From Thermoplasmatales archaeon (GTDB taxonomy: Archaea; Thermoplasmatota; Thermoplasmata; Thermoplasmatales; Thermoplasmataceae): a stretch of DNA of 53,271 nt. The stretch spans positions 1 to 53,271 of the forward strand of contig JACWAH010000004.1 of NCBI GenBank assembly GCA_014874365.1. The letters run 5' to 3'. Shown here piece by piece: positions 6,774 to 53,271 of this stretch; the first letter of the stretch is position 1, and each line of letters opens with the position of its first letter. The position numbers and the translations under genes were made by a program. A model generated the notes under the pieces. That model worked only from the letters and a program-made list of their open reading frames with translations. It ran no database searches and was not told the DNA's origin.

Positions 6774-6854
6774 CGCCGCGAGGGAGATTCGAACTCCCGA
6801 TCCACGAGGGAACCAGATCTCAAGTCTGGCGCCGTACCACTGGGCCACCGCGGC
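6774..6854 (-). tRNA. tRNA-Ser (anticodon UGA)
   Basis: Read on the minus strand, the gene folds as a class II tRNA. The acceptor GCCGCGG (from 6854) pairs with TCGCGGC (6781-6775), leaving discriminator G at 6774. The D stem is GCC/GGC. The anticodon stem CCAGA/TCTGG encloses the loop CTTGAGA, so the anticodon is TGA. There is a 14-base variable region, and the T arm is GGGAG-TTCGAAT-CTCCC. Discriminator G and the UGA anticodon identify serine. CCA is not encoded and no intron is seen. Confidence 0.95.
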
Positions 6855-43508: not shown

Positions 43509-44024
43509 TCAAGAGTTCTGGCTTTCGAACATTATCGACAGCACCTTGCTTTTCACTTCCTTTATTGCATCTTCTATCTTCTTTAATTTCTCAGAGCTGA
43601 GGTATTTCTCGTTTTCTATTATTGCGTTTTCGATTTCTTCCATGTTTTTCATGAAGTCAAATTCGTCGATCCTTTCTGAAATTTCCATTTCTTTCTCCAG
43701 CCTCTCGCTTATCTCCCTGTTTTCATTCAGGAAAGCATTGCCTTCGCGGGTTATTGAATATACTTTCTTCCCATCCATCTCCTGCAATTCCAGAAGGCGC
43801 TCTTCCAGGAGCTCCTGGAGGGTTGGATATACTATTCCAGGGCTCACCGGATGGTGATAAAATTTACTGATTTCCTGAATCAGCGAATACCCATGTCTTG
43901 GACCTTCCTTAAGCGTTAACAGGACTAGGAACCTGAATTCTCCTCTTCTAATGCCAAAACCATGGGCGTGCCTTCCCTGGCCGAATCCTCCACCGTGTCT
44001 GCCATGCCATTCACCGTTATGCAT
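43509..44024 (-). CDS. PadR-family regulator with His/Gly-rich N-terminus
   Basis: A 171-residue transcription regulator. The first 25 residues are rich in His and Gly (MHNGEWHGRHGGGFGQGRHA). The PadR winged helix follows: FLVLLTLKEGPRHGYSLIQE, then SPGIVYPTLQELLEERLLEL and YSITREGNAFL. A long C-terminal helical region serves for dimerisation. The gene is divergent from a small protein whose N-terminus is also His/Gly rich. The shared bias suggests both respond to or bind the same metal. A GGAG sits 10 bases before the ATG. Confidence 0.9.
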   Translation of the reverse strand: MHNGEWHGRHGGGFGQGRHAHGFGIRRGEFRFLVLLTLKEGPRHGYSLIQEISKFYHHPVSPGIVYPTLQELLEERLLELQEMDGKKVYSITREGNAFLNENREISERLEKEMEISERIDEFDFMKNMEEIENAIIENEKYLSSEKLKKIEDAIKEVKSKVLSIMFESQNS

Positions 44025-44101
44025 ATTTTATACTCCTTCAATACTATATCTATATATATGTTTATAAACTTATCTGTAATAACTAATTTGGAGGTGAAAA
44101 G
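44025..44101. promoter_or_regulatory. Divergent promoter between the PadR gene and the His-rich protein
   Basis: A 77-base AT-rich spacer. ctatatatatgtttataaac at about 44050-44069 is a plausible TATA region, and GGAGGTGA at 44090-44097 is a perfect Shine-Dalgarno site 5 bases ahead of the ATG at 44102. This strong site is unusual in a window where most genes look leaderless. Confidence 0.6.
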
Positions 44102-44320
44102 ATGTACGGACACAGAAATGGATCTGGATGCGGGCACAGAGGATCTGGCAACTATGGGCAACATTCCCACATGCATGACGGGCCATGCTGGCAGTATTAC
44201 CATGAAGATATTGCACAGGAGGACCGAAAGGAATACCTGGTAGAGCAGAAGAAATACCTTGAAGCAGATCTGAAAGCGGTCGAAGAAGAAATATCCGGGA
44301 TAGAACCAGCAAAACATTGA
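44102..44320 (+). CDS. Small His/Gly-rich protein with C-terminal coiled coil (DUF5320-like)
   Basis: A 72-residue protein. The N-terminal half is rich in His, Gly and Cys (MYGHRNGSGCGHRG and HSHMHDGPCWQ) and could bind a transition metal. The C-terminal half, from about residue 40, is a charged helix (RKEYLVEQKKYLEADLKAVE). This glycine-rich head plus helical tail resembles DUF5320 proteins, common beside metal or redox genes in archaea. It has a perfect Shine-Dalgarno site and is divergent from the PadR regulator, so it is the likely regulated target. Confidence 0.7.
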   Translation: MYGHRNGSGCGHRGSGNYGQHSHMHDGPCWQYYHEDIAQEDRKEYLVEQKKYLEADLKAVEEEISGIEPAKH

Positions 44321-44512
44321 GTAGTTTCCGACTTGGAGAAAGGAGAAAGAAAGGGCGCGCATTTTGCTTTCTCCTGGCATTTATTTACTTCAGAATCATA
44401 TTTTAATAGAAGGGTGGAAACAAGGCCTTATGAAGGGATTCAAGGGTTCATATAACAAATTCATGAAAGAAGAAGTTCAGTTCACTAAAATTGAAACAAT
44501 AAACGGAAAGCA

Positions 44513-44863
44513 TCACGCCATGACTATAGCCGGAACGATGGCCAGCCATGCAAATAGGTACATCAAATTAATTGGGAAGACCCTTATGTTTACCTTTTCA
44601 CCCACTACTGTTATCAAAAGACCCAGGATTATAGTTAACAGTAGAGAGACCAGGCCAACCTGCAGAAGTTGCACTATGGACAAAGACTGGGCCAATTTCA
44701 TTAGCGCCACTTTGGTTGTAACAAAAAATGATGCAAAACTGCACAATGGCACGGTTATTACTGCGAGGATGGGCGGTAATTTTCTAATCATGGCAAGAGG
44801 ATGTTTAAAATCCACCTGAACTTTGAATATCCTGAAATAGAACAAAAAAAGAACTATTCCCAA
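44513..44863 (-). CDS. Putative small membrane protein, possibly truncated
   Basis: A 116-residue frame with three strongly hydrophobic segments: about residues 31-50, 66-90 and 97-116. The last segment is cut by a TGA right inside the membrane helix, and in the next frame more hydrophobic residues follow (CFPFIVSILVN). The gene may therefore be truncated by a frameshift. The start would be a TTG at 44863. The opposite strand has an overlapping 151-codon frame without a signature. Either strand could be coding; I slightly favour the minus frame. Confidence 0.35.
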   Translation of the reverse strand: MGIVLFLFYFRIFKVQVDFKHPLAMIRKLPPILAVITVPLCSFASFFVTTKVALMKLAQSLSIVQLLQVGLVSLLLTIILGLLITVVGEKVNIRVFPINLMYLFAWLAIVPAIVMA

Positions 44864-45359
44864 AAACCAGAGACCTACATACCCTATTTACGGTATAAGA
44901 TAGAAAATCAATTCATTCGGCACAAGCCCCACCTGCTCCTATCCCGAACTTATCAACAAGATTAATAAAGAACTTTCTAAAGAAAGACGCGGGAAATGAA
45001 GCACCGGTTTTTTTCTGATGTTACTGCTTTACTCTTCTATGACCTGGATGATGGCTTTTTCCCAGGCAATGTCTGAATCTTTCTTATGGAGTTTATTGTG
45101 GTGATTCCATCTCTCGCTGTCAGGTATGAAGTCGCAGGAAATTGCAGCGCAACAGGAGAATCTCTTGAACCAATGGGCTTGTCTACCGTTGCTTAAAACT
45201 TTAAGCGAATAATATTCCAGTAAAGACCATAGCATGAATCAACATAATTACTCCTTTTAGTGCGTAATGGTTGATCAACGAGGCAGGAAAGATCAAGATT
45301 CCAGCCTGAATAAACAGTTAAAACCTGCATGAGCAAAGTTCAGGAGGACCCAAAAATCA
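44864..45359. other. Intergenic region with one doubtful small frame
   Basis: About 500 bases. The only candidate is a 68-codon minus-strand frame at 45029-45235 with a Cys/His/Trp-rich middle (FKRFSCCAAISC, then RWNHHNKLHKKD), possibly a small metal-binding protein or a fragment of a larger one. A GGAGG at 45342-45346 precedes the methyltransferase gene. Confidence 0.3.
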
Positions 45360-46028
45360 GTGTGGCGGAGGTATTTTGAGGTAGTTGCACATAATAAGAT
45401 GATGATACAGAAAACTTCCAAAGAATTCTATACAGAGATGGGAGTAGACTGGCTTTCTGAACGAAAGAATGTAGATCAGACGAAGAAAGAGTTGTCGTAT
45501 ATTATTCAATTATTGAAGAAAGACTGGAAGATTTTGGACTTAGCATGTGGATATGGCAGATTTGCAATCCCCTTGGCATCCAATGGATTTAGAGTGGAGG
45601 GTATAGATATAACTCCAGTTTTCATAGAGAGAGCAAAGGAAGAGGCAAAGAAAAGGAATCTTAACATTGAATTTAAGGTTGGGAATATGACGGATTTGCC
45701 TTATGATGACGATTCGTTTGATGCTGTTATCTGCATGTGGAATGCCTTCAGCGAACTTGCACGGGAACAGGAGCAATTAAACGCAATTTTAGAGATCTAT
45801 AGGGTACTCAAAAAAGACGGATTGGCCTTTGTTGAAGTGAGAAACCACAGGTCAAACGGACTGGTGGAAGCAAACGCAATAGATGGATATGAGGCAATGC
45901 CAAGTTATAATCATAACAGGGCCAGTATGAGAAGGTTGATGAAACTCTCACAATTGGAGAATTATGAGATATTCATTGACAACTTTGGCGGACGAAACCG
46001 GCTTATTTTGAAAATACATAAACCTTAG
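45360..46028 (+). CDS. Class I SAM-dependent methyltransferase
   Basis: A 222-residue methyltransferase with the standard Rossmann-like fold. Motif I is ILDLACGYGRFAIPLA, followed by VEGIDITPVFIERA, then FKVGNMTDLPYDDDSFDAVI and YRVLKKDGLAFVEV. The substrate is unknown; no Cys pattern of arsenite methyltransferases is seen despite the nearby arsenic operon. The start may be the GTG at 45360, 14 bases after GGAGG, or the ATG at 45399. It is the last ordinary gene before the accessory island. Confidence 0.85.
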   Translation: MWRRYFEVVAHNKMMIQKTSKEFYTEMGVDWLSERKNVDQTKKELSYIIQLLKKDWKILDLACGYGRFAIPLASNGFRVEGIDITPVFIERAKEEAKKRNLNIEFKVGNMTDLPYDDDSFDAVICMWNAFSELAREQEQLNAILEIYRVLKKDGLAFVEVRNHRSNGLVEANAIDGYEAMPSYNHNRASMRRLMKLSQLENYEIFIDNFGGRNRLILKIHKP

Positions 46029-46146
46029 ATGCCAGGGGCATGAATTCCTTTTTTGTCAGAAAGCCGGGGCATTGAGATAAGGGGTACTGTCAAAAGATAA
46101 ATGTGATTTGCCAGAACATCGATTAGAATTGTGAGCCCAGATAAGA

Positions 46147-46187
46147 ATGGACCGGTCGGGGATTGATTAAAGTTTTAAGTGAATACT
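46147..46187 (+). repeat. 41-bp direct repeat with GACCGGTC palindrome, left copy
   Basis: It matches 50623-50663 at 37 of 41 positions. It begins atggaccggtcggg, including the 8-base palindrome gaccggtc, and continues with ttgattaa, gttttaag and gaatact shared. It lies 15 bases beyond the stop of the last minus-strand island gene. Candidate attachment site, ParB-binding site or operator. Confidence 0.75.
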
Positions 46188-46201
46188 ACCATTAGATTTG
46201 T

Positions 46202-46468
46202 TCAATCAACGGGAGACACGATTTGACCAGTTTCATCATCTACCAAGTAAACGTGAAAATGACTTCCCAACCTTTGAGGAGTGTCACAAGTGTACACTAA
46301 AGTCCATATTCCTGCTGCAAGTAAGGTACCTTGCAAAATTCGGCACTTCCCAACTCCTTTCTTCTTCATGTCAGATACCGCTATATCGTTGATGTCTTGA
46401 AATCCCATATAACAGCATCTTGATAGATAATTTAATTCTTGTAATCTATATTTTTGAGGTTGATGCAA
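46202..46468 (-). CDS. Small protein of unknown function, end of minus-strand island block
   Basis: An 88-codon frame. The second half has a hydrophobic stretch (GTLLAAGIWTLVYTC) and then GSHFHVYLVDDETGQ. The true start may be later, for example the ATG that gives MKKKGVGKC at about residue 34. No family is recognised. It continues the run of small minus-strand genes, and the repeat at 46147 lies just past its end. It could be a fragment of a longer protein. Confidence 0.4.
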   Translation of the reverse strand: MHQPQKYRLQELNYLSRCCYMGFQDINDIAVSDMKKKGVGKCRILQGTLLAAGIWTLVYTCDTPQRLGSHFHVYLVDDETGQIVSPVD

Positions 46469-46486
46469 TGATAAGAACTGGTTTTC

Positions 46487-46699
46487 CTACCTATTCCTAC
46501 GATTCAGTTCGTCTCTCAGCCCCTTAAGCGTGTCTACTGTATTCTCGTGAGCCCATTCCCGATGTTTCTTGTAAACATGACTGTTACAACTTCCTTTAGA
46601 ATAATTTGTGTTATGGCATACAGGGCATTCATAATCCAAAAGTTGCCCAAAACATCCAAGAATAGTTCTATTACCTAGTCGTTCAATACACTTAGACAT
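46487..46699 (-). CDS. Small C2H2-type zinc-finger protein
   Basis: A 70-residue protein with one finger: YECPVCHNTNYSKGSC followed by HVYKKH, giving Cys-x2-Cys and His-x4-His. The C-terminus is a charged helix ending RDELNRRNR. Such small fingers are common in archaeal viruses and plasmids, where they often regulate transcription. The ATG lies two bases after the stop of the upstream 155-residue gene, so the genes are cotranscribed. Confidence 0.65.
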   Translation of the reverse strand: MSKCIERLGNRTILGCFGQLLDYECPVCHNTNYSKGSCNSHVYKKHREWAHENTVDTLKGLRDELNRRNR

Positions 46700-46701
46700 C
46701 C

Positions 46702-47169
46702 CTATTCCTCAAGTAGTTCTCTGAGGAGCTTTACGCCTAAATAAGTCAATAATCCCGTGCCTGCCCCAGATCCAAGAGTTACCAATACAGACTCCAGGAT
46801 TGGATGTTCTGTTGTGTATTTTATGTTCTCATAGTGTGCTTTTCCTGCACCATAACCAGACAAGATGGCTGCAGCAAGGCCAGCAGGTACTTCTGGTGAA
46901 TCCTCTATCAAATGACCAATAGGATCATATTTAGGGTCAACTCTATCTCTATGCACCTTGTAATAGTCACTATATTCTTTCACATGCATGCATTCCGTTC
47001 CATTGATCCTCCTTCGGAAGTCTCTTTTCTGAAGGTCAGGTTCGCCTATGGATTCAACAAACCCATCATAATCATTGGGCGGCGGCACTTTCGTTTTGGA
47101 AACTACTACATCTTTGTGATAACCCAATTTATCTAATCTAGATTTTACCCCTCCCCATTCATAACTCAT
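46702..47169 (-). CDS. Unknown protein with C-terminal membrane segment
   Basis: A 155-residue protein. The first 90 residues are soluble and charged (KSRLDKLGYHKDVVV, EPDLQKRDFRRRING). A glycine-rich hydrophobic region near residues 95-110 (AGLAAAILSGYGAGKAH) and another near 125-148 (LVTLGSGAGTGLLTYLGVKL) could associate with the membrane. No family is recognised. The start overlaps the stop of the preceding zinc-ribbon gene (ATGA), so translation is coupled. Confidence 0.6.
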   Translation of the reverse strand: MSYEWGGVKSRLDKLGYHKDVVVSKTKVPPPNDYDGFVESIGEPDLQKRDFRRRINGTECMHVKEYSDYYKVHRDRVDPKYDPIGHLIEDSPEVPAGLAAAILSGYGAGKAHYENIKYTTEHPILESVLVTLGSGAGTGLLTYLGVKLLRELLEE

Positions 47170-47465
47170 TTTTCATCATCCTCCTTATCACTGAGCCACG
47201 ACAGAAGTGCTGTAAGACCCACGCCAATAACTGCCCCAAGTGCCAAAGTCCCACCGAACCCCAGCTTTATGCCATTTTGCGTGTATCCACAGTTGTGGCA
47301 TTCCCAATGTTCAGCAGTCACAGAAATTCCCGACATTTTCTTACCACATTTCGGGCATGGTATCGGGAGTCCTTCAACACATCCTATTCCATTCCTTAGC
47401 AATCTTTCTTGGGTCTGTTTGAGCAACGTATCCTCACCATCATCTAACCGAACAGTTCTGGCCAC
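47166..47465 (-). CDS. Zinc-ribbon protein with C-terminal membrane anchor
   Basis: A 99-residue protein. Residues about 37-60 form a Cys4 zinc ribbon (CPKCGKKM, then WECHNCGYTQNG), followed by one glycine-rich membrane helix (GTLALGAVIGVGLTALLSWL) and an acidic tail. The zinc ribbon would face the cytoplasm if the tail is anchored. It is followed with ATGA overlap by the 155-residue protein and then by the zinc-finger protein, a three-gene unit. Confidence 0.65.
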   Translation of the reverse strand: MARTVRLDDGEDTLLKQTQERLLRNGIGCVEGLPIPCPKCGKKMSGISVTAEHWECHNCGYTQNGIKLGFGGTLALGAVIGVGLTALLSWLSDKEDDEK

Positions 47466-47569
47466 GTATTCTTATCACTTTATTGTATATAAATACTTAC
47501 AGTAAACTCATGTTTACACATGAAATGTGATTGTATCCTGTCAGTTGAAGGAAGTCATAAGTGAAGCGT

Positions 47570-47878
47570 CTACTGGTTAGTTCCTTTTCTTGGTTCAGGC
47601 GTAACGGGTCTCATATTTCTTCCCAGATGAACTCCATAGAAGATCACCAAAAGAAAATTAATGAGAGTGGCAGGGCCTGGATACAGGGGATTGAATCTGA
47701 GAATTTCAGGAAGGATCCATACGAAAAGTATAAGAGATGCAGCGGAGGCTAAACCGTTTGCCATAACTATACTATCTGCTATGTGCCCTTTTGGTACAAG
47801 ATGGGGAAATTTGTAAAAATATATGAATGAGAAAAGAAGCATTATCAAGTAGCCAACCCACAAATACAAAAGTTCCAT
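47570..47878 (-). CDS. Small membrane protein with three helices
   Basis: A 102-residue protein with hydrophobic segments at about residues 3-22, 37-57 and 68-86, and a basic polar C-terminus (RNMRPVTPEPRKG). No family is recognised. It begins 10 bases after the stop of the next upstream gene (47889-48197) on the same strand, forming a pair of membrane proteins. Gene size and clustering fit a virus- or plasmid-derived region. Confidence 0.6.
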   Translation of the reverse strand: MELLYLWVGYLIMLLFSFIYFYKFPHLVPKGHIADSIVMANGLASAASLILFVWILPEILRFNPLYPGPATLINFLLVIFYGVHLGRNMRPVTPEPRKGTNQ

Positions 47879-47888
47879 TTATTCCTCC

Positions 47889-48197
47889 TTATGAATTGTT
47901 GAATTTATCGACGCTATCTTTTTCAGCAGACGCACTAATTGTGCCTCCCAGCACAGCTCCTAGTATTCCTAAGATTGGGTCGAGTAAGAAGAGAAGCCCT
48001 CCAATAGCCGCACCGGCAAGTGACGCACTACCCATTTCAGCTTGCACTTCTTTGTTTGTATACCAGTTTATGCTTCCCCTAGGACACTTGAGATTGAAAG
48101 AATAAGTTATATCTGACCTCGTTTTGGGAGGTTGCCCCTGAAAGTTTATGTAAACTTTCTCTTGCGGATGTGACTTACACCATGCAAAAAATCTCAT
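47889..48197 (-). CDS. Small protein with glycine-zipper membrane region
   Basis: A 102-residue protein. The N-terminal 60 residues are polar, with Cys and His that might bind a metal (WCKSHPQEK, LKCPRGSINWYTN). Then comes a long hydrophobic glycine-zipper stretch (GSASLAGAAIGGLLFLLDPI and ILGAVLGGTISASAE) and a polar tail. Glycine zippers are typical of oligomeric membrane or pore-forming proteins. No family is recognised. First gene of the minus-strand row of small proteins. Confidence 0.6.
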   Translation of the reverse strand: MRFFAWCKSHPQEKVYINFQGQPPKTRSDITYSFNLKCPRGSINWYTNKEVQAEMGSASLAGAAIGGLLFLLDPILGILGAVLGGTISASAEKDSVDKFNNS

Positions 48198-48268
48198 CTA
48201 TTCCATCACACATCGTTCATGAACCTTCTCACGATTTCTATTGGTAATGAAAAGTAATAATATATCAA

Positions 48269-48640
48269 TTTTCGCCTACCTTTTTCTAAAAGGTACAGTC
48301 GCAGTGCCGTGCAATTATCCCCTAAAACGATTGACATGTGGCACGCACGAGAACCCCTCATATAATCCCGCACCGAGTGGTGTAAGCGTTAGAGGTGGGT
48401 GGTGTGTGGAACACCACACATACACCACGAGCGGCGAGCACAGGACACCACCCTGAATGAGCATAGCGAAAGAAGGGCTTTTAGAAGAGAAGTGCGAGAC
48501 GTAAATCAAAAGAGGGGTTAGATTTGAATTTGAGCCGGAGCATATCAGAACGAATATGTTATGGGGCAACTGAAAAGAAGAGAAGAGGACATACAAAGGG
48601 GGAATCGGGGACGCCAGGAAGTTCCTGGAAGAACTCTAAA
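48269..48640 (+). repeat. Long hairpin-rich direct repeat, left copy
   Basis: This copy shares many blocks in the same order with the region from 52488: the start (ttttcgcctacctttttcta) with its hairpin tacctttt/aaaaggta, then gagtggtgtaagcgttag, then 61 bases identical between 48404-48464 and 52765-52825, then gacgtaaatcaaaagagggg. Inside are hairpins such as gtgtgg-aaca-ccacac. It lacks several hairpin modules found in the right copy. It ends in a truncated antitoxin gene. Confidence 0.85.
48552..48639 (+). pseudogene. Truncated antitoxin gene copy
   Basis: The sequence from GAATATGTTATGG to the TAA at 48637-48639 matches the last half of the intact antitoxin gene at 53039-53212 (VMGQLKRREEDIQ here; VMDQLERSEQDIQ there). 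The promoter and roughly the first 28 codons are missing. A small frameshift separates the front part from the final RKFLEEL. It is a dead copy. Confidence 0.7.
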
Positions 48641-48654
48641 GGGTAACAAATCGC

Positions 48655-49605
48655 CTACGTCTTGACTTGAAATGAAAAAACATAGTGGATACCGTTCCTT
48701 TTATGGTGTACCTCGATTTGGCTCATATTGCGACTCAATCGAAGTACCATATCTTTTAGTTCATCGCTAAAGAGATGCTCTGGTATAATCAGATTAAAAG
48801 TCTGTTCTGGTATTTCATAAGAGTTGCCATGTGGATTACCGTCGGTGTGAACCTCTGCCATAATCCTTAGTCTAGGCCTAACAGACGCCTTTTCAATCTC
48901 CTGCGAAGATGCGATTACCGTTTGATCAGTCATATATGAGAGTGCATTTTCAACTTCTTTCATGACCTCAGGAGAGAGGTGGATGTTCTTGTTGGAGAGA
49001 TTTCCGTGTAAAGCATTAAGAAACATCTGGTAAAAGAGCTTCTCTTTGGGTATCGTTTCAAAGAATGAGCCGTGTATCAGAGATAGTTTGACCTTGTCAC
49101 TTCCACGATGCGTCCTTACCATATAGAAACAATTTCGCTGAAATGTACGATAATCATCCATTGTGGATAATGCCAGGTCTTTACATGACGCTATCTTTGA
49201 GACCAAATCGGTTTGATTTATCACGTCGATTTCATAGAGGCTCTTTGTCTTAGTTGGAATGGTTGAATTAAAAGATGCAATACTTCCTCCTTTCGAATCT
49301 TTAAGTTCGAGGACGCTACCATTTGTAAGTTGACCATTAACCAATGCCGTTTTCATCAAAAAGTCTGGGAATTGCTGCGAAGAAGCGTATTTTAACCCAT
49401 CTCTCAAAGAAGCACAGTCTTCTCTTTTCCAGAAATCAAAGTGAAAGTCGTCTCGTAATACTTTTCTATCATCAGCATAAGCTAGCGAACCTCCAGATGC
49501 CTTTGCGACCATCCCTAGCAAATCGGAATCCAGAGATAGCTTCCGTTTGGATAGAAGGTTCACTCCAGATGCGTACAATTCGAGGATGTCTCCGAAGGAA
49601 ATCAT
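48655..49605 (-). CDS. Putative type II restriction endonuclease, PD-(D/E)XK type
   Basis: A 316-residue protein. A PD-(D/E)XK nuclease core is visible: Pro80-Asp81 in QFPDFLMKT and Glu100-Leu101-Lys102 in GSVLELKDSKGG, the classical P-D-x(18)-E-x-K pattern of type II restriction enzymes. The following SIASFNSTIPTKTK is also reminiscent of such enzymes. The start ATG overlaps the stop of the DNA methyltransferase gene by four bases, the usual layout of a restriction-modification pair. The target sequence cannot be read. Confidence 0.75.
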   Translation of the reverse strand: MISFGDILELYASGVNLLSKRKLSLDSDLLGMVAKASGGSLAYADDRKVLRDDFHFDFWKREDCASLRDGLKYASSQQFPDFLMKTALVNGQLTNGSVLELKDSKGGSIASFNSTIPTKTKSLYEIDVINQTDLVSKIASCKDLALSTMDDYRTFQRNCFYMVRTHRGSDKVKLSLIHGSFFETIPKEKLFYQMFLNALHGNLSNKNIHLSPEVMKEVENALSYMTDQTVIASSQEIEKASVRPRLRIMAEVHTDGNPHGNSYEIPEQTFNLIIPEHLFSDELKDMVLRLSRNMSQIEVHHKRNGIHYVFSFQVKT

Positions 49606-50516
49606 GTGATCACTTGCTGTTTGTCAAATAAAAAATTGTCCAGTGGTCTAGCGTATGGCCATATCTCATCAAGCTTTTCAGTCGGACTGTAATAAGCGCG
49701 GAGCTTAACGATATCATCTGCTTTTCTTAACGAGGAAAGGCGATTCTTGATTAGCTCAAAGTAGTTAGGATCGATTTCTATAGATATGCTTTTCCTCTTG
49801 AGCTGCGACGCAACCATTGCCGTAACACCTGTACCCGCAGTCGGGTCTAACACCGTATCACCTGGAAGCGATGAGGAAAGTATTACTCTCAAAAGCAGTG
49901 CTAAAGGTGCTTGTTGTGTATGCATCCTATTGCCGTTTTTATCTCTAATGGCTTCATCGCCCGCGAAGTACCCCGACGTAAGTTCCCTAATATCATCCCA
50001 TACGTCGGTCAATAATACACCATTTCTACGCTCGGTTTTATAATTCTTCGGAAGGGGCACGTTTGCTCTGAGTTTGTTGAAGATTCTTGGTTTATCGCCT
50101 TTAGTTGCATACACTATTATCTGGTACTGCTTTCCATATCTGATTTCTGAAGGTACTGCGGAAGTCATCTTTCTCCAAATTATCAAATTTTGAAATGTCC
50201 ATCCCGTTTTCCTGAGAGCGTGTAAAACTTCTTCTGTATTCTTCTCTCTCTGCATAAAGTAAATGGCGGCGCCTTGAGAGGACTTCTTGTTGATGAGATC
50301 GAGAACCTCGTCGATCCATTTCCAGTATTCCTCAGTAGGCTGCTCGTCATCAAAATGTAAATAGTCCTTTCCTTGGTTGAAAGGAGGGTCAAAGAAAGTC
50401 AAATCTACAGTATCGCTATCGACGGAGCGCAGTGCCTCAATGCAATCCCCATTGATTACCTGGTTATCTCTTATTTTAATAGATTCGTTATTCTTCATTT
50501 CTAATCCCATAATCAT
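49602..50516 (-). CDS. DNA methyltransferase (N6-adenine or N4-cytosine), beta class
   Basis: A 304-residue DNA methyltransferase of the N6/N4 type. Catalytic motif IV FFDPPFNQGKDY is at residues 41-52, and the SAM-binding motif I LDPTAGTGVTAM comes later, at 223-234. This order (IV before I) is that of the beta class. DPPF favours adenine N6 methylation, but N4 cannot be excluded. Internal starts at residues 4 or 7 are possible. It is the first gene of the coupled pair with the endonuclease, which it should protect against by modifying host DNA. Confidence 0.9.
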   Translation of the reverse strand: MIMGLEMKNNESIKIRDNQVINGDCIEALRSVDSDTVDLTFFDPPFNQGKDYLHFDDEQPTEEYWKWIDEVLDLINKKSSQGAAIYFMQREKNTEEVLHALRKTGWTFQNLIIWRKMTSAVPSEIRYGKQYQIIVYATKGDKPRIFNKLRANVPLPKNYKTERRNGVLLTDVWDDIRELTSGYFAGDEAIRDKNGNRMHTQQAPLALLLRVILSSSLPGDTVLDPTAGTGVTAMVASQLKRKSISIEIDPNYFELIKNRLSSLRKADDIVKLRAYYSPTEKLDEIWPYARPLDNFLFDKQQVIT

Positions 50517-50622
50517 AATCTCTTTCTTATCTCTGCAGTTACAATCGACGCATAAGATAATAATATTTTCGATTCCAAGGTGTAGTACTGCTAATCAGTA
50601 CCATAATTAAACCTAATATAGT

Positions 50623-50663
50623 ATGGACCGGTCGGGATTTGATTAATGTTTTAAGGGAATACT
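50623..50663 (+). repeat. 41-bp direct repeat with GACCGGTC palindrome, right copy
   Basis: Partner of 46147-46187 (37 of 41 identical), 4476 bases away. It lies between the divergent methyltransferase (start 50516) and ParB (start 50774) genes, about 110 bases before the ParB start. Confidence 0.75.
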
Positions 50664-50773
50664 CAACTTTCATGTAAAATTTCCAGTAAGCTCTGCGTGA
50701 AAATCAATACGAAATATTAGTTCAGGGCAGGCGTTATAGTAACGATTAAATAACGTTGATGTGATGTAATTTT

Positions 50774-51547
50774 ATGGAAGTCAAGGATATTGAAATGTCA
50801 AAAATAGTCATATCTCAGCAGAATGCAAGAAAAGACCTAACTGCGGGAAGTGAAGATGCTAACCTAGATGACCTGGCCAATAGCATCAAGGAAAAAGGTT
50901 TACTCAGTCCGATAACAGTGATTCAAAAAGGAGATTTGTACGAATTGATTGTAGGACAGAGAAGATATCTTGCATGCAAGAAACTAGAGTTTAAAAAAAT
51001 CCCCGCCATAATAAGAGATAAGTCGGACGACACTGATTATCTCGCATTATCATTAATAGAAAACATACATCGGTCTGATATGTCCCCGGTTGATAAGGCA
51101 AGGGCATACAGTTCTCTGTTTGACAAGTACAAAGATTACAGCCAAGTATCCAAGGAAACAGGAGTATCTGTTGTAACAATTAGAAAATATGTTAAACTGC
51201 TTGATCTCGCTCCTCAGTTGCAAGACAGGCTCAACACCTCCGAAGGCGTTGTAGGGATTGATGCAATGTCTCGTTTATCTTCAACATTCAGTTCCACAGA
51301 AGATCAGGTCAAAGTCTTTGATAGTGTTAAAGGCTTCACTGGTAAGATGCAGTCCGAAATCATTAAGAGAAGCGAGGGTGACGCTTCCAAAGTGCCGGAA
51401 TTAGTTGAACGGGCAATGCAGGGAGAGTTCAACGTTACTATGTGTCACTATGGTTTCTGTGACCTTATGTCTGGCAAACTTAAGGAAAGAATTAGTGAAC
51501 TAATTGACCAGGGAAAAAGTCTTGATGAGTTGTTGAGCCCTTCTTAG
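50774..51547 (+). CDS. ParB-like DNA-binding protein
   Basis: A 257-residue ParB/Spo0J-family protein. The N-terminal domain carries GQRRYLACKKL (residues 61-71, the C1 box) and LIENIHRSDMSPVDKARAY (94-112, the ENxxR box), residues that bind CTP in ParB proteins. A helix-turn-helix follows at about 122-145 (DYSQVSKETGVSVVTIRKYV). The C-terminal 90 residues are less typical. No ParA is in the window. The ATG lies 25 bases after gattaaataa (50744-50753), so it is probably leaderless. It is followed by a nuclease gene on the same transcript. Confidence 0.88.
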   Translation: MEVKDIEMSKIVISQQNARKDLTAGSEDANLDDLANSIKEKGLLSPITVIQKGDLYELIVGQRRYLACKKLEFKKIPAIIRDKSDDTDYLALSLIENIHRSDMSPVDKARAYSSLFDKYKDYSQVSKETGVSVVTIRKYVKLLDLAPQLQDRLNTSEGVVGIDAMSRLSSTFSSTEDQVKVFDSVKGFTGKMQSEIIKRSEGDASKVPELVERAMQGEFNVTMCHYGFCDLMSGKLKERISELIDQGKSLDELLSPS

Positions 51548-51578
51548 ATTGTATCCTTGGTGCAACGGTGATGTGTCA

Positions 51579-52427
51579 ATGAGCTTAACGTCAATAATGA
51601 AAGGAGGGCTGTCAAAGTTAGTAGTAGAGAACATTCCGATTCCTAGGGGCCTGTTTAATGCCTCCAAAGACTGTATTGCTTGCCCAAAGACCAAGAACTA
51701 TTCACTAGTAGGTACAGCATTCGATTATCTTGTCAGATCGGAATTGAAGCGACTCCATCCCGAAGCCATAGAAAATGGGTTTATTGCGGAAAATAGCATA
51801 GCTTTGGTCGATAGAGATGTTAAGCTGTCGGGAAATTTTCAGGCTCATGATGTGAGAATTGGAGAAAAAGAGTTACAAACGATGAAAAATGCGTCAGTGA
51901 AGTTCAAAGCTGAAAGGGCAGCCTTCATAGTAAACGGAATTCTGACCGATGATTTCATAGAGGCAACGATTAGATACGCGAGAATGGATGTGGTCTTCAG
52001 GGCAGGCATGTATGACGATGTTGAGAAAGAAGTTGATCAGTCAGACATAGAGGACATGAGGGTGTTATACGATTTGATTCCTTTAGAACTCAAGAGACCA
52101 GATAATGCCATATTGCTTGATCCTACATTTGGGGAAGCTTCAAAAAGGGTTGGAGGAGCCGATGTTGACTTGATAATAGGCGACACCATGATCGACATTA
52201 AGACCACTAAGGAAATGAAACTTGACGGATACCTTTGGTCTCAAATCGTCGGTTATTTGGTTCTCGCAGACGAGACAATTGGTGGGAAAGAAAACCTTCC
52301 TTATATTGAGAACCTTGGCCTTTACTTTTCTAGGTATGGTTATTTATGGAAAATCGAAGCAAACTATGTACGCAAGAATACCCATTACGGAGAAGTGAGG
52401 AAAAAGCTTCTAGAAAGTGGGAAGTAG
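51579..52427 (+). CDS. RecB/Cas4-like PD-(D/E)XK nuclease
   Basis: A 282-residue protein. The nuclease core is near residues 193-226: GGADVDLIIGD supplies the first Asp, IDIKTTKE the D-x-K pair, and QIVGYLVLA the Q-x3-Y motif typical of RecB, Cas4 and AddB nucleases. The N-terminal part has CIACPKT, one Cys pair, and GTAFDYLVRSELKRL. The four-Cys cluster of Cas4 is not seen. The frame is open to a TTG at 51549, but ATG 51579 has GGTGAT just upstream. It lies 31 bases after parB, so the two probably work together. Confidence 0.75.
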   Translation: MSLTSIMKGGLSKLVVENIPIPRGLFNASKDCIACPKTKNYSLVGTAFDYLVRSELKRLHPEAIENGFIAENSIALVDRDVKLSGNFQAHDVRIGEKELQTMKNASVKFKAERAAFIVNGILTDDFIEATIRYARMDVVFRAGMYDDVEKEVDQSDIEDMRVLYDLIPLELKRPDNAILLDPTFGEASKRVGGADVDLIIGDTMIDIKTTKEMKLDGYLWSQIVGYLVLADETIGGKENLPYIENLGLYFSRYGYLWKIEANYVRKNTHYGEVRKKLLESGK

Positions 52428-52487
52428 CTCTTTGGAACTGATTGAACGCCACAAGTCAACAAGCTTGTATTTTGTTCAATTTACGCA

Positions 52488-53030
52488 TTTTCGCCTACCT
52501 TTTTCTAAAAGGTATGGTCGCAGTGTTGTGCAATTTATTCCTCTTTGAATAAGCAAAAGGTGGCACGGCACGGGAATCCCCTCATATTATCCCGCACTGA
52601 GCGTAGCGATATTGTGCGGTCAAAAATTCCCCTACCCCTGTTCCCCTCATATTGCACTCCGCAGGAGAGAATAATGTGCCCGAAGCGAGCCGGAAGTCTT
52701 GCGAAGCAAGACCGAGTGGTGTAAGCGTTAGCGGTGGGTGGTGTGAACACCAAGCGTAGCGAAGGTGTGGAACACCACACATACACCACGAGCGGCGAGC
52801 ACAGGACACCACCCTGAATGAGCATGTCGAATGAAGGGCTCTTCGAAGAAGAGTGCAAGACGTAAATCAAAAGAGGGGTTAGGGGTGAATTTTGATTGAA
52901 GGCGAAGCATGGGGTCCTGTGCTCGGCGTGCAGGCGAGCGAAGGGCACATAGTAATTAGCGAAGGCTGAAAGTCGGGGTGAATTTGAGCCGAAGCATACC
53001 AAAAGGTATTAAAATCTAAAAGTATATGAG
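52488..53030 (+). repeat. Long hairpin-rich direct repeat, right copy
   Basis: A longer relative of the repeat at 48269, with extra modules. Each added module carries a short core such as gcgtagcga or gcgaagc, usually in the loop of a small stem: ccgcac/gtgcgg around 52595-52619, gtcttg-cgaag-caagac near 52696-52712, and cacc/ggtg around aagcgtagcgaa near 52749-52768. The copy ends at a promoter-like AT-rich stretch ahead of the antitoxin gene. Open frames crossing this region are by-products of the repeats. Confidence 0.85.
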
Positions 53031-53038
53031 TATGCATA

Positions 53039-53212
53039 ATGACCACGGCTAAATCTAGACTTGTAAGCATACCTAAATCTGACTTGGATAGCCTTGAGGC
53101 TACCATTGAGACTCTTGAAAATGAGTATGTCATGGATCAACTGGAAAGAAGCGAACAGGACATACAGAAGGGCAAGGTCAGGAACGTAAGAGAGTTTCTC
53201 AAGGAACTCTAA
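53039..53212 (+). CDS. RelB/Phd-like antitoxin, apparently without partner toxin
   Basis: A 57-residue protein (MTTAKSRLVSIPKSDLDSLE, then VMDQLERSEQDIQKGKVRNV and REFLKEL). The IPK-x-DL-xSLE start and a tail with V-M-x2-L-x-R-S-x3-I-x-KGK are typical of small archaeal RelB/Phd-type antitoxins. An ATG at 53039 follows an AT-rich stretch with ttaaaatct. Antitoxin genes usually overlap a RelE-type toxin downstream, but here the plus strand is closed by stops right after the gene. It is thus an orphan, or its toxin lies elsewhere. Confidence 0.6.
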   Translation: MTTAKSRLVSIPKSDLDSLEATIETLENEYVMDQLERSEQDIQKGKVRNVREFLKEL

Positions 53213-53271
53213 TAGAACTTCTTGGCTTCATCCTTGTGAAGAATGGCTCTGCGCGTCACTTTCTTCTCTAC
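53209..53271 (-). CDS. C-terminal fragment of a convergent gene (cut by window edge)
   Basis: On the minus strand an open frame enters from the right edge and ends in TAG at 53211-53209. Its last residues read VTRRAILHKDEAKKFY. It overlaps the antitoxin stop codon by four bases. Only 20 residues are visible, so neither function nor reality is certain. Confidence 0.3.
   Translation of the reverse strand, partial: VEKKVTRRAILHKDEAKKFY

Follow-up and report, generated by a model that had tools for sequence, protein, structure and literature searches.

How did the defence genes at the right end of this contig come to lie among repeated sequences, and at which of those repeats do they change? The window, a stretch of 53,271 nucleotides from a Thermoplasmatales archaeon, is the entire contig C23 (JACWAH010000004.1) of a genome (G000) of 1.48 Mb in 26 contigs. 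Its right part holds two copies of a hairpin-rich repeat, which we call HP, and several copies of a shorter 39-bp repeat, D2. A sequence-only reading of the window had taken the HP copies for borders between which homologous recombination could move a cassette. The relatives point elsewhere: HP sits at a fixed place inside a larger element and, judged by where homology begins and ends, the true junctions of cassette change are the tRNA-derived D2 sites, not HP. We read the right end of the window as a tRNA-Ala-anchored array that would have grown by serial integration and decay, much as cis-mobilizable elements (CIMEs) accrete, with an integron-like result; we put the probability of this reading at about 0.78.

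The 39-bp junction site

A repeat scan of the whole window returned a 44-nt repeat at 50620, at 46144, and in degenerate form at 45170; these are its D2 sites. G000 has seven close copies, all on the plus strand, on contigs C22 and C23, and the reversed pattern has none. Across the order, D2 is present in 57 of 117 genomes (reversed-pattern controls, 0). Exact matches among 84,980 species comprise 37 stretches, all from Thermoplasmata or their metagenome-assembled genomes; carriers include Acidiplasma aeolicum VT, I-plasma, and a Thermoplasma sp. The exact pattern has no match in IMG/VR viral contigs. By using an iterated weight matrix, we collected 199 distinct sites, all from Thermoplasmata, from ~90 fetched stretches. 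They define a sharply bounded 39-bp block with uninformative flanks, and their orientation is uniform in 50 of the 53 loci that have at least two sites (mixed in three). Assembly breaks are frequent in the few hundred bases around D2 and HP, which means that arrays have probably been under-counted.

Consecutive D2 sites have a median spacing of 1,235 bp, usually with two open reading frames (ORFs) between them, and these lie on either strand (138 vs. 151). The largest cluster of cassette proteins is of RelB/RelE type (47 of 289 ORFs), followed by VapB/VapC, nucleotidyltransferase pairs, and Fic; on C22, Fic, VapBC-like, PIN, and OLD/Gabija-like genes lie between sites. We rejected D2 as a promoter or terminator, since gene strands are balanced yet the orientation of D2 is fixed.

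Comparison of D2 pairs reveals extensive change on one side of the site at a time. In 143 pairs the right cassette is the same and the left differs, in 138 the left is the same and the right differs, and in only two are both the same; the same cassette thus stands beside differing neighbours in 281 pairs vs. two. The 143 and 138 pairs are drawn from 27 and 29 clusters, respectively, and homology ends at the site edge. The sequences by themselves show here that cassettes are reassorted at D2, and the sequence-only reading was right about variation between relatives.

In one relative genome, a lone D2 is followed by a decayed HP, an antitoxin gene, RelE, and an intact tRNA-Val on the opposite strand; in other genomes the array ends at an intact opposite-strand tRNA-Ala (CGC or TGC). 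The 3′ end of tRNA-Ala read backwards, TGGACCGGTCGGGATTTGA, equals D2 positions 1–19 exactly, and the other 20 nt are similar, in inverted orientation, to what comes after the tRNA (TTAATCTATTAATCGAATAC). We therefore interpret D2 as an attL site, a tRNA core joined to an arm of an element. This composition does not fit an integron attC with folded R and L boxes, which we rejected. Two loci, L115 and L132, hold a variant D2 site (at 1162− and 8111+ in reverse-strand numbering) whose right-hand ~28 bp are inverted with respect to the tRNA part, which suggests inversion at the inner repeats.

The tRNA-Ala anchor and its plasmid-like element

The element itself is laid out on a contig of one relative (G054). 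There, tRNA-Ala (16–89) is followed by a 429-aa protein (138–1427), one AAA ATPase of uncertain kind, ParA, a serine resolvase of 201 aa, an Orc1/Cdc6-like protein, restriction-modification genes of a type III-like kind, and HP. The 429-aa protein has no Pfam match; its sequence shows the motifs of tyrosine recombinases and is similar to an integrase in PHROGs (7e-8). The best PDB hits of its AlphaFold model (predicted local distance difference test score, 74) are all tyrosine recombinases, with XerA of T. acidophilum (4e-7), archaeal Xer, and integron and lambda integrases as the best folds. With this predicted fold and the catalytic motifs, we class it as a putative tyrosine recombinase. A search of PDB sequences with the integrase profile gave nothing useful, and plasmid records held no match to the integrase.

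Close homologues of the integrase are preceded by tRNA-Ala in 17 of 19 loci, mostly ~50 nt away. Homologues at the 68% level adjoin tRNA-Val. More broadly, those at 55%–68% (L305, L306, and others) lie next to tRNA-Val and, judging from sequence, next to further tRNA genes whose arm is similar; the family thus probably targets more than one or two tRNA genes. G000 has two integrases, one at the end of contig C25 beside tRNA-Ala(CGC) and one at the start of C14 beside tRNA-Ala(TGC), the same number as its two arrays; the gaps between the contigs are unclosed. Integrase, resolvase, and HP share one contig in 13 cases. By direct search, integrases were found at the tRNA ends of arrays or as remnants beside D2, as with the decayed integrase beside D2 in G026. 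The XerA profile detected no tyrosine recombinase inside the fetched D2–D2 cassettes, the array integrase itself being too divergent for that profile.

Upstream of the resolvase lies a sharply bounded region of 82 nt with two inverted-repeat subsites (L084:7263–7868 and 21 relatives). It resembles a res site and differs from D2, which we accordingly rejected as the site of the resolvase. Beyond the 82 nt the sequence varies between copies.

Taken across relatives, the order of the element is tRNA-Ala, tyrosine integrase, ParA, serine resolvase, Orc1/Cdc6, restriction-modification, relB/relE, HP, cargo, and attL. The integrase adjoins a restored tRNA and the core is duplicated at the far end, which is what a tRNA-targeting element leaves. 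HP belongs to this integrative plasmid-like element of Thermoplasmata, which is inserted at tRNA-Ala.

We propose that this element, carrying the AAA ATPase, ParA, the resolvase with its res-like region, an Orc1/Cdc6-like initiator, variable restriction-modification genes, relB/relE, HP, and variable cargo, would integrate at tRNA-Ala and leave the integrase beside attR and D2 as attL, with the integrase presumably acting on D2. Repeated integrations at the tRNA end would each add one D2 junction. Once the plasmid backbones were lost, what remained would be cassettes of ~1.2 kb arranged head to tail, with D2 between them and mainly toxin-antitoxin and defence genes inside; recombination at D2 would reassort these cassettes among strains and species. 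Serial integration and decay would explain the direct orientation of the sites, the tRNA core at each junction, the integrase remnants beside sites, and the better conservation of sites closer to the tRNA end (39 of 54 loci, P = 0.0099).

The window and its HP copies

The features of the right part of the window are as follows, from left to right.

45174–45212, plus strand: degenerate D2 (tRNA-Ala-derived attachment) site, with 13 mismatches to the consensus, under the matrix threshold used for the 199 sites
Between the degenerate site at 45174 and the site at 46148: methyltransferase-like gene
46148–46186, plus strand: D2 site, tRNA-Ala 3′-end core and element arm
46702–48197, minus strand: small ORFs from the ORF list, a cassette between D2 at 46148 and the left HP; no Pfam match
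48269–48531, plus strand: left HP copy, decayed, internal segments absent
48549–48640, plus strand: remnant of the 57-aa antitoxin-like ORF, with blocks of 80% and 71% in common with 53120–53212
48655–49605, minus strand: 316-aa protein, by its position a possible restriction enzyme or other methyltransferase partner
49602–50516, minus strand: DNA methyltransferase (PF01555, 5e-42; PADLOC type II methyltransferase, 4e-44)
50624–50662, plus strand: D2 site, exact consensus; the first 19 nt equal the 3′ end of the tRNA-Ala of contig C25
50774–51547, plus strand: ParB-like protein, cargo (PF02195, 1e-19; TIGR00180, 1e-33)
51549–52427, plus strand: 292-aa protein, cargo, candidate defence family (PADLOC PDC-S61, 1e-9; phrog_34041, 6e-17)
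52488–53020, plus strand: right HP copy, intact structured element, folded core 52577–53000
53039–53212, plus strand: intact 57-aa antitoxin-like ORF with copies on C22 and C7; no family match
53213–53271, minus strand: RelE-like toxin gene, truncated by the contig end so that just its 3′ end is present; homologous to a full gene on C7, whose protein matches RelE/StbE (TIGR02385, 1e-6)

The two repeat copies, taken with the antitoxin-like ORF (left, 48269–48640; right, 52488–53212), are collinear and share blocks of 58 nt (86%), 24 nt (92%), 35 nt (97%), and 128 nt (91%), plus others. Their longest common exact run is 61 nt, at 48404 and 52765, whereas 200 shuffled versions gave runs of at most 11 nt; the shared, ordered blocks of the sequence-only reading are real. 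Segments of ~110 nt and ~25 nt are absent from the left copy, and the motif gcgtagcga occurs twice in the window, both times within the right copy (0.09 expected by chance). A third, near-full copy of 89% identity lies on C22 (33669–34239), also near a contig end; in the window the contig ends ~60 nt beyond the right copy. G000 thus has three copies, two full and one decayed, and each lies at an island; the genome-wide count, which confines full or near-full copies to two islands, upholds the suggested link of the repeat to islands. On C7 the antitoxin that follows HP is present alone, with just ~50 nt of HP.

We regard the repeats of the window as copies of one ~430-nt structured element that is probably RNA-coding. 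They are more plausibly two units in succession, each with its own HP and the left of them decayed, than a flanking pair. A decayed HP followed by modification genes on the opposite strand is the usual order of the element, so the left HP is probably what remains of an older unit.

The defence cargo that the sequence-only reading proposed is borne out. Among the individual gene calls, the methyltransferase and the ParB-like protein stand. The proposed endonuclease, the 316-aa protein, has no match in Pfam, PADLOC, NCBIfam, PHROGs, or PDB; its gene overlaps the end of the methyltransferase gene, and it is a candidate for a new restriction enzyme or other partner. Matches of the proposed RecB-like nuclease, the 292-aa protein, are limited to the uncharacterised families PDC-S61 and phrog_34041, and a PDB sequence search with it gave nothing useful. 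The antitoxin-like gene and the RelE-like gene point towards each other from opposite strands (window, 53039–53271; L007, ~2520–2980), a convergent arrangement that is unusual for such pairs.

Structure of the HP element

HP occurs in 29 of the 117 genomes of the order. Read along D2, its place is right of the D2 sites in almost all fetched arrays. The antitoxin comes after it in most copies, as do restriction-modification genes on the opposite strand. Twenty-two copies align at a mean column identity of 73%. The right copy of the window folds at −155 kcal/mol (z = −4.5; antisense, z = −3.0), and in the consensus structure 97.3% of cells pair, with eight pairs changed on both sides vs. 2.8 in shuffles. 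The covariation score exceeds that of all 500 shuffles, with the caution given by the tool that the sequences are related. Departures from pairing are more often G-U than A-C (32 vs. 17 pairs, P = 0.044). The structured modules noticed from the letters alone are thus substantiated, and we consider HP a probable RNA, most likely a large non-coding one, which would be transcribed from the element. The region (window 44000–53271) has no match in Rfam up to E = 1, and the exact HP pattern has none in IMG/VR viral contigs or phage records.

Large structured RNAs of hundreds of nucleotides with an elaborate fold, such as GOLLD and ROOL, are carried on mobile elements, and HP is alike in these respects. 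HP differs from them in having no Rfam counterpart and, at ~430 nt, is a candidate RNA.

Weighing the explanations

Several observations weigh against the reading proposed here. The polarity in the conservation of D2 is modest (mean rho = 0.23). Cassettes are bounded on both sides by tRNA-derived cores, but the integrase-side arm is mostly gone: with a match of at least 18 of 21 positions, it is found to the left of D2 in two of the 199 sites, plus one in G026 that is one base short, so cassettes are not simple intact integrants. Positions ~4–24 of D2 follow neither neighbour, a description 35–86 log units better than a single crossover, while recent D2 pairs alone favour a crossover at 21–23 (phylogeny lies outside the model in both cases). 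Such a core could be the result of gene conversion between sites or of duplication of the target. The resolvase was not found in G000, and the link of the window to the tRNA-Ala contigs C25 and C14 is one suggested by relatives. Finally, the strand preference of HP is weak (32 vs. 17 pairs, P = 0.044).

The array might instead be a true integron analogue, in which circular cassettes with one D2 each are inserted by the integrase at a tRNA-Ala platform. We hold this to be a serious contender, if somewhat short of an even chance. Oriented sites, cassettes of single gene pairs rich in toxin-antitoxin systems, shuffling across many genera, and a tyrosine recombinase at one end are all as such a system would have them, but no circle was seen, polarity is weak, and most cassettes lack the integrase-side arm.

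It is unlikely, we believe, that HP is a DNA feature (an origin, a transfer origin, or a recombination enhancer) and not an RNA. Its richness in hairpins, the Orc1/Cdc6-like initiator of the element, and the better-than-shuffled fold of the antisense strand would suit such a role; the sense strand nevertheless folds better, and both the compensatory changes and the excess of G-U over A-C departures favour RNA.

Insertion of a transposon- or casposon-like element at the tRNA 3′ end, with duplication of a ~19-nt target, is improbable. Core positions that follow neither neighbour are what a host-derived duplication would give, and the arms at both ends form inverted repeats, but a tyrosine integrase lies beside attR in the element and no casposase was noticed, although no search aimed at one was made.

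That D2 is a Xer/dif-like site, with the host XerA moving the cassettes in the manner of pdif modules, we think a shade less probable again. D2 can be drawn as an 11-6-11 inverted-repeat arrangement, the crossover at 21–23 in recent pairs would fit, and XerA is the sole PF00589 protein found in G000. We dropped the idea after the match to tRNA-Ala: half of D2, the left half of its core included, is tRNA sequence; several array-free genomes with XerA (e.g., G008) have no such site within three mismatches; and a dedicated integrase adjoins the tRNA.

Least probable of all is exchange between the HP copies as borders, possible in principle given an identical run of 61 nt and a 128-nt block at 91% identity. 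In the arrays of relatives HP stands on one side only of the defence genes; cassette change maps to D2, one site of which (50624) separates the methyltransferase gene from the ParB gene within the proposed cassette; and the left copy is decayed and 80%–91% identical, no fresh duplicate.

Comparison with known systems

Accretion of CIMEs at attR is the nearest described process (PMC5704250). As there, serial integration and decay would stack defective attachment-site-bounded units at one tRNA, with an integrase-bearing element at the tRNA end; unlike there, the host is archaeal, a locus can hold about eight units of ~1.2 kb with one gene pair apiece, most units have lost the integrase-side arm, and the same cassettes recur in many genera. 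Integrons, archaeal ones included (PMC9668308), share oriented tandem cassettes rich in toxin-antitoxin genes, reassortment at short sites, and a tyrosine recombinase at one end, but here the site is a tRNA 3′-end attachment site and not a folded attC, and the integrase is part of a plasmid-like element. The pdif (dif) modules of Acinetobacter (PMC6449649, PMC13141974) are likewise small, carry toxin-antitoxin and adaptive genes, and are reassorted at short sites; they use the host XerC/XerD and plasmids, whereas the Thermoplasmata sites are direct, derived from tRNA-Ala, and have a dedicated integrase nearby.

Archaeal tRNA-targeting integrative elements (PMC8371274) also have a tyrosine integrase, a tRNA 3′-end attachment site, and a restored tRNA gene; the present integrase differs in having no Pfam match, and its Thermoplasmata family in carrying HP and long cassette arrays. 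Within the same order, restriction-modification and toxin-antitoxin islands near tRNAs are reported from Cuniculiplasma (PMC5155288), and the available part of that account does not describe the repeat, the attachment site, or the cassette organisation.

In the literature searched, mostly papers outside subscription, we found no account of a tRNA-anchored, integron-like array of gene pairs that spans an archaeal order and comes together with a new structured element. The parts are of known kinds, and the combination appears undescribed in the searchable literature. Tentatively, Thermoplasmata may have independently evolved an analogue of integrons, in which a plasmid tyrosine integrase, with the 3′ end of tRNA-Ala as its platform and D2 sites as cassette tags, captures toxin-antitoxin and defence cassettes, stacks them, and exchanges them between genera; HP would be a new class of large structured RNA encoded by the same element. 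Fast turnover of defence islands is known, yet the way in which a single defence or toxin-antitoxin unit is acquired is seldom clear, least of all in archaea. With the junctions, the platform tRNA, a candidate recombinase, and ~200 natural junctions in hand, cassette capture is directly testable in cultured Thermoplasmata, and HP adds a candidate large RNA borne by the same element.

Two further observations concern the surroundings of the arrays. The window contains a tRNA-Ser(TGA) gene (6774–6854, minus strand) with no D2 site nearby. To the left of the array, an OsmC-like gene is found in two genera (L038:6472–6975; G011:628721–629227), and the array locus may thus be syntenic.

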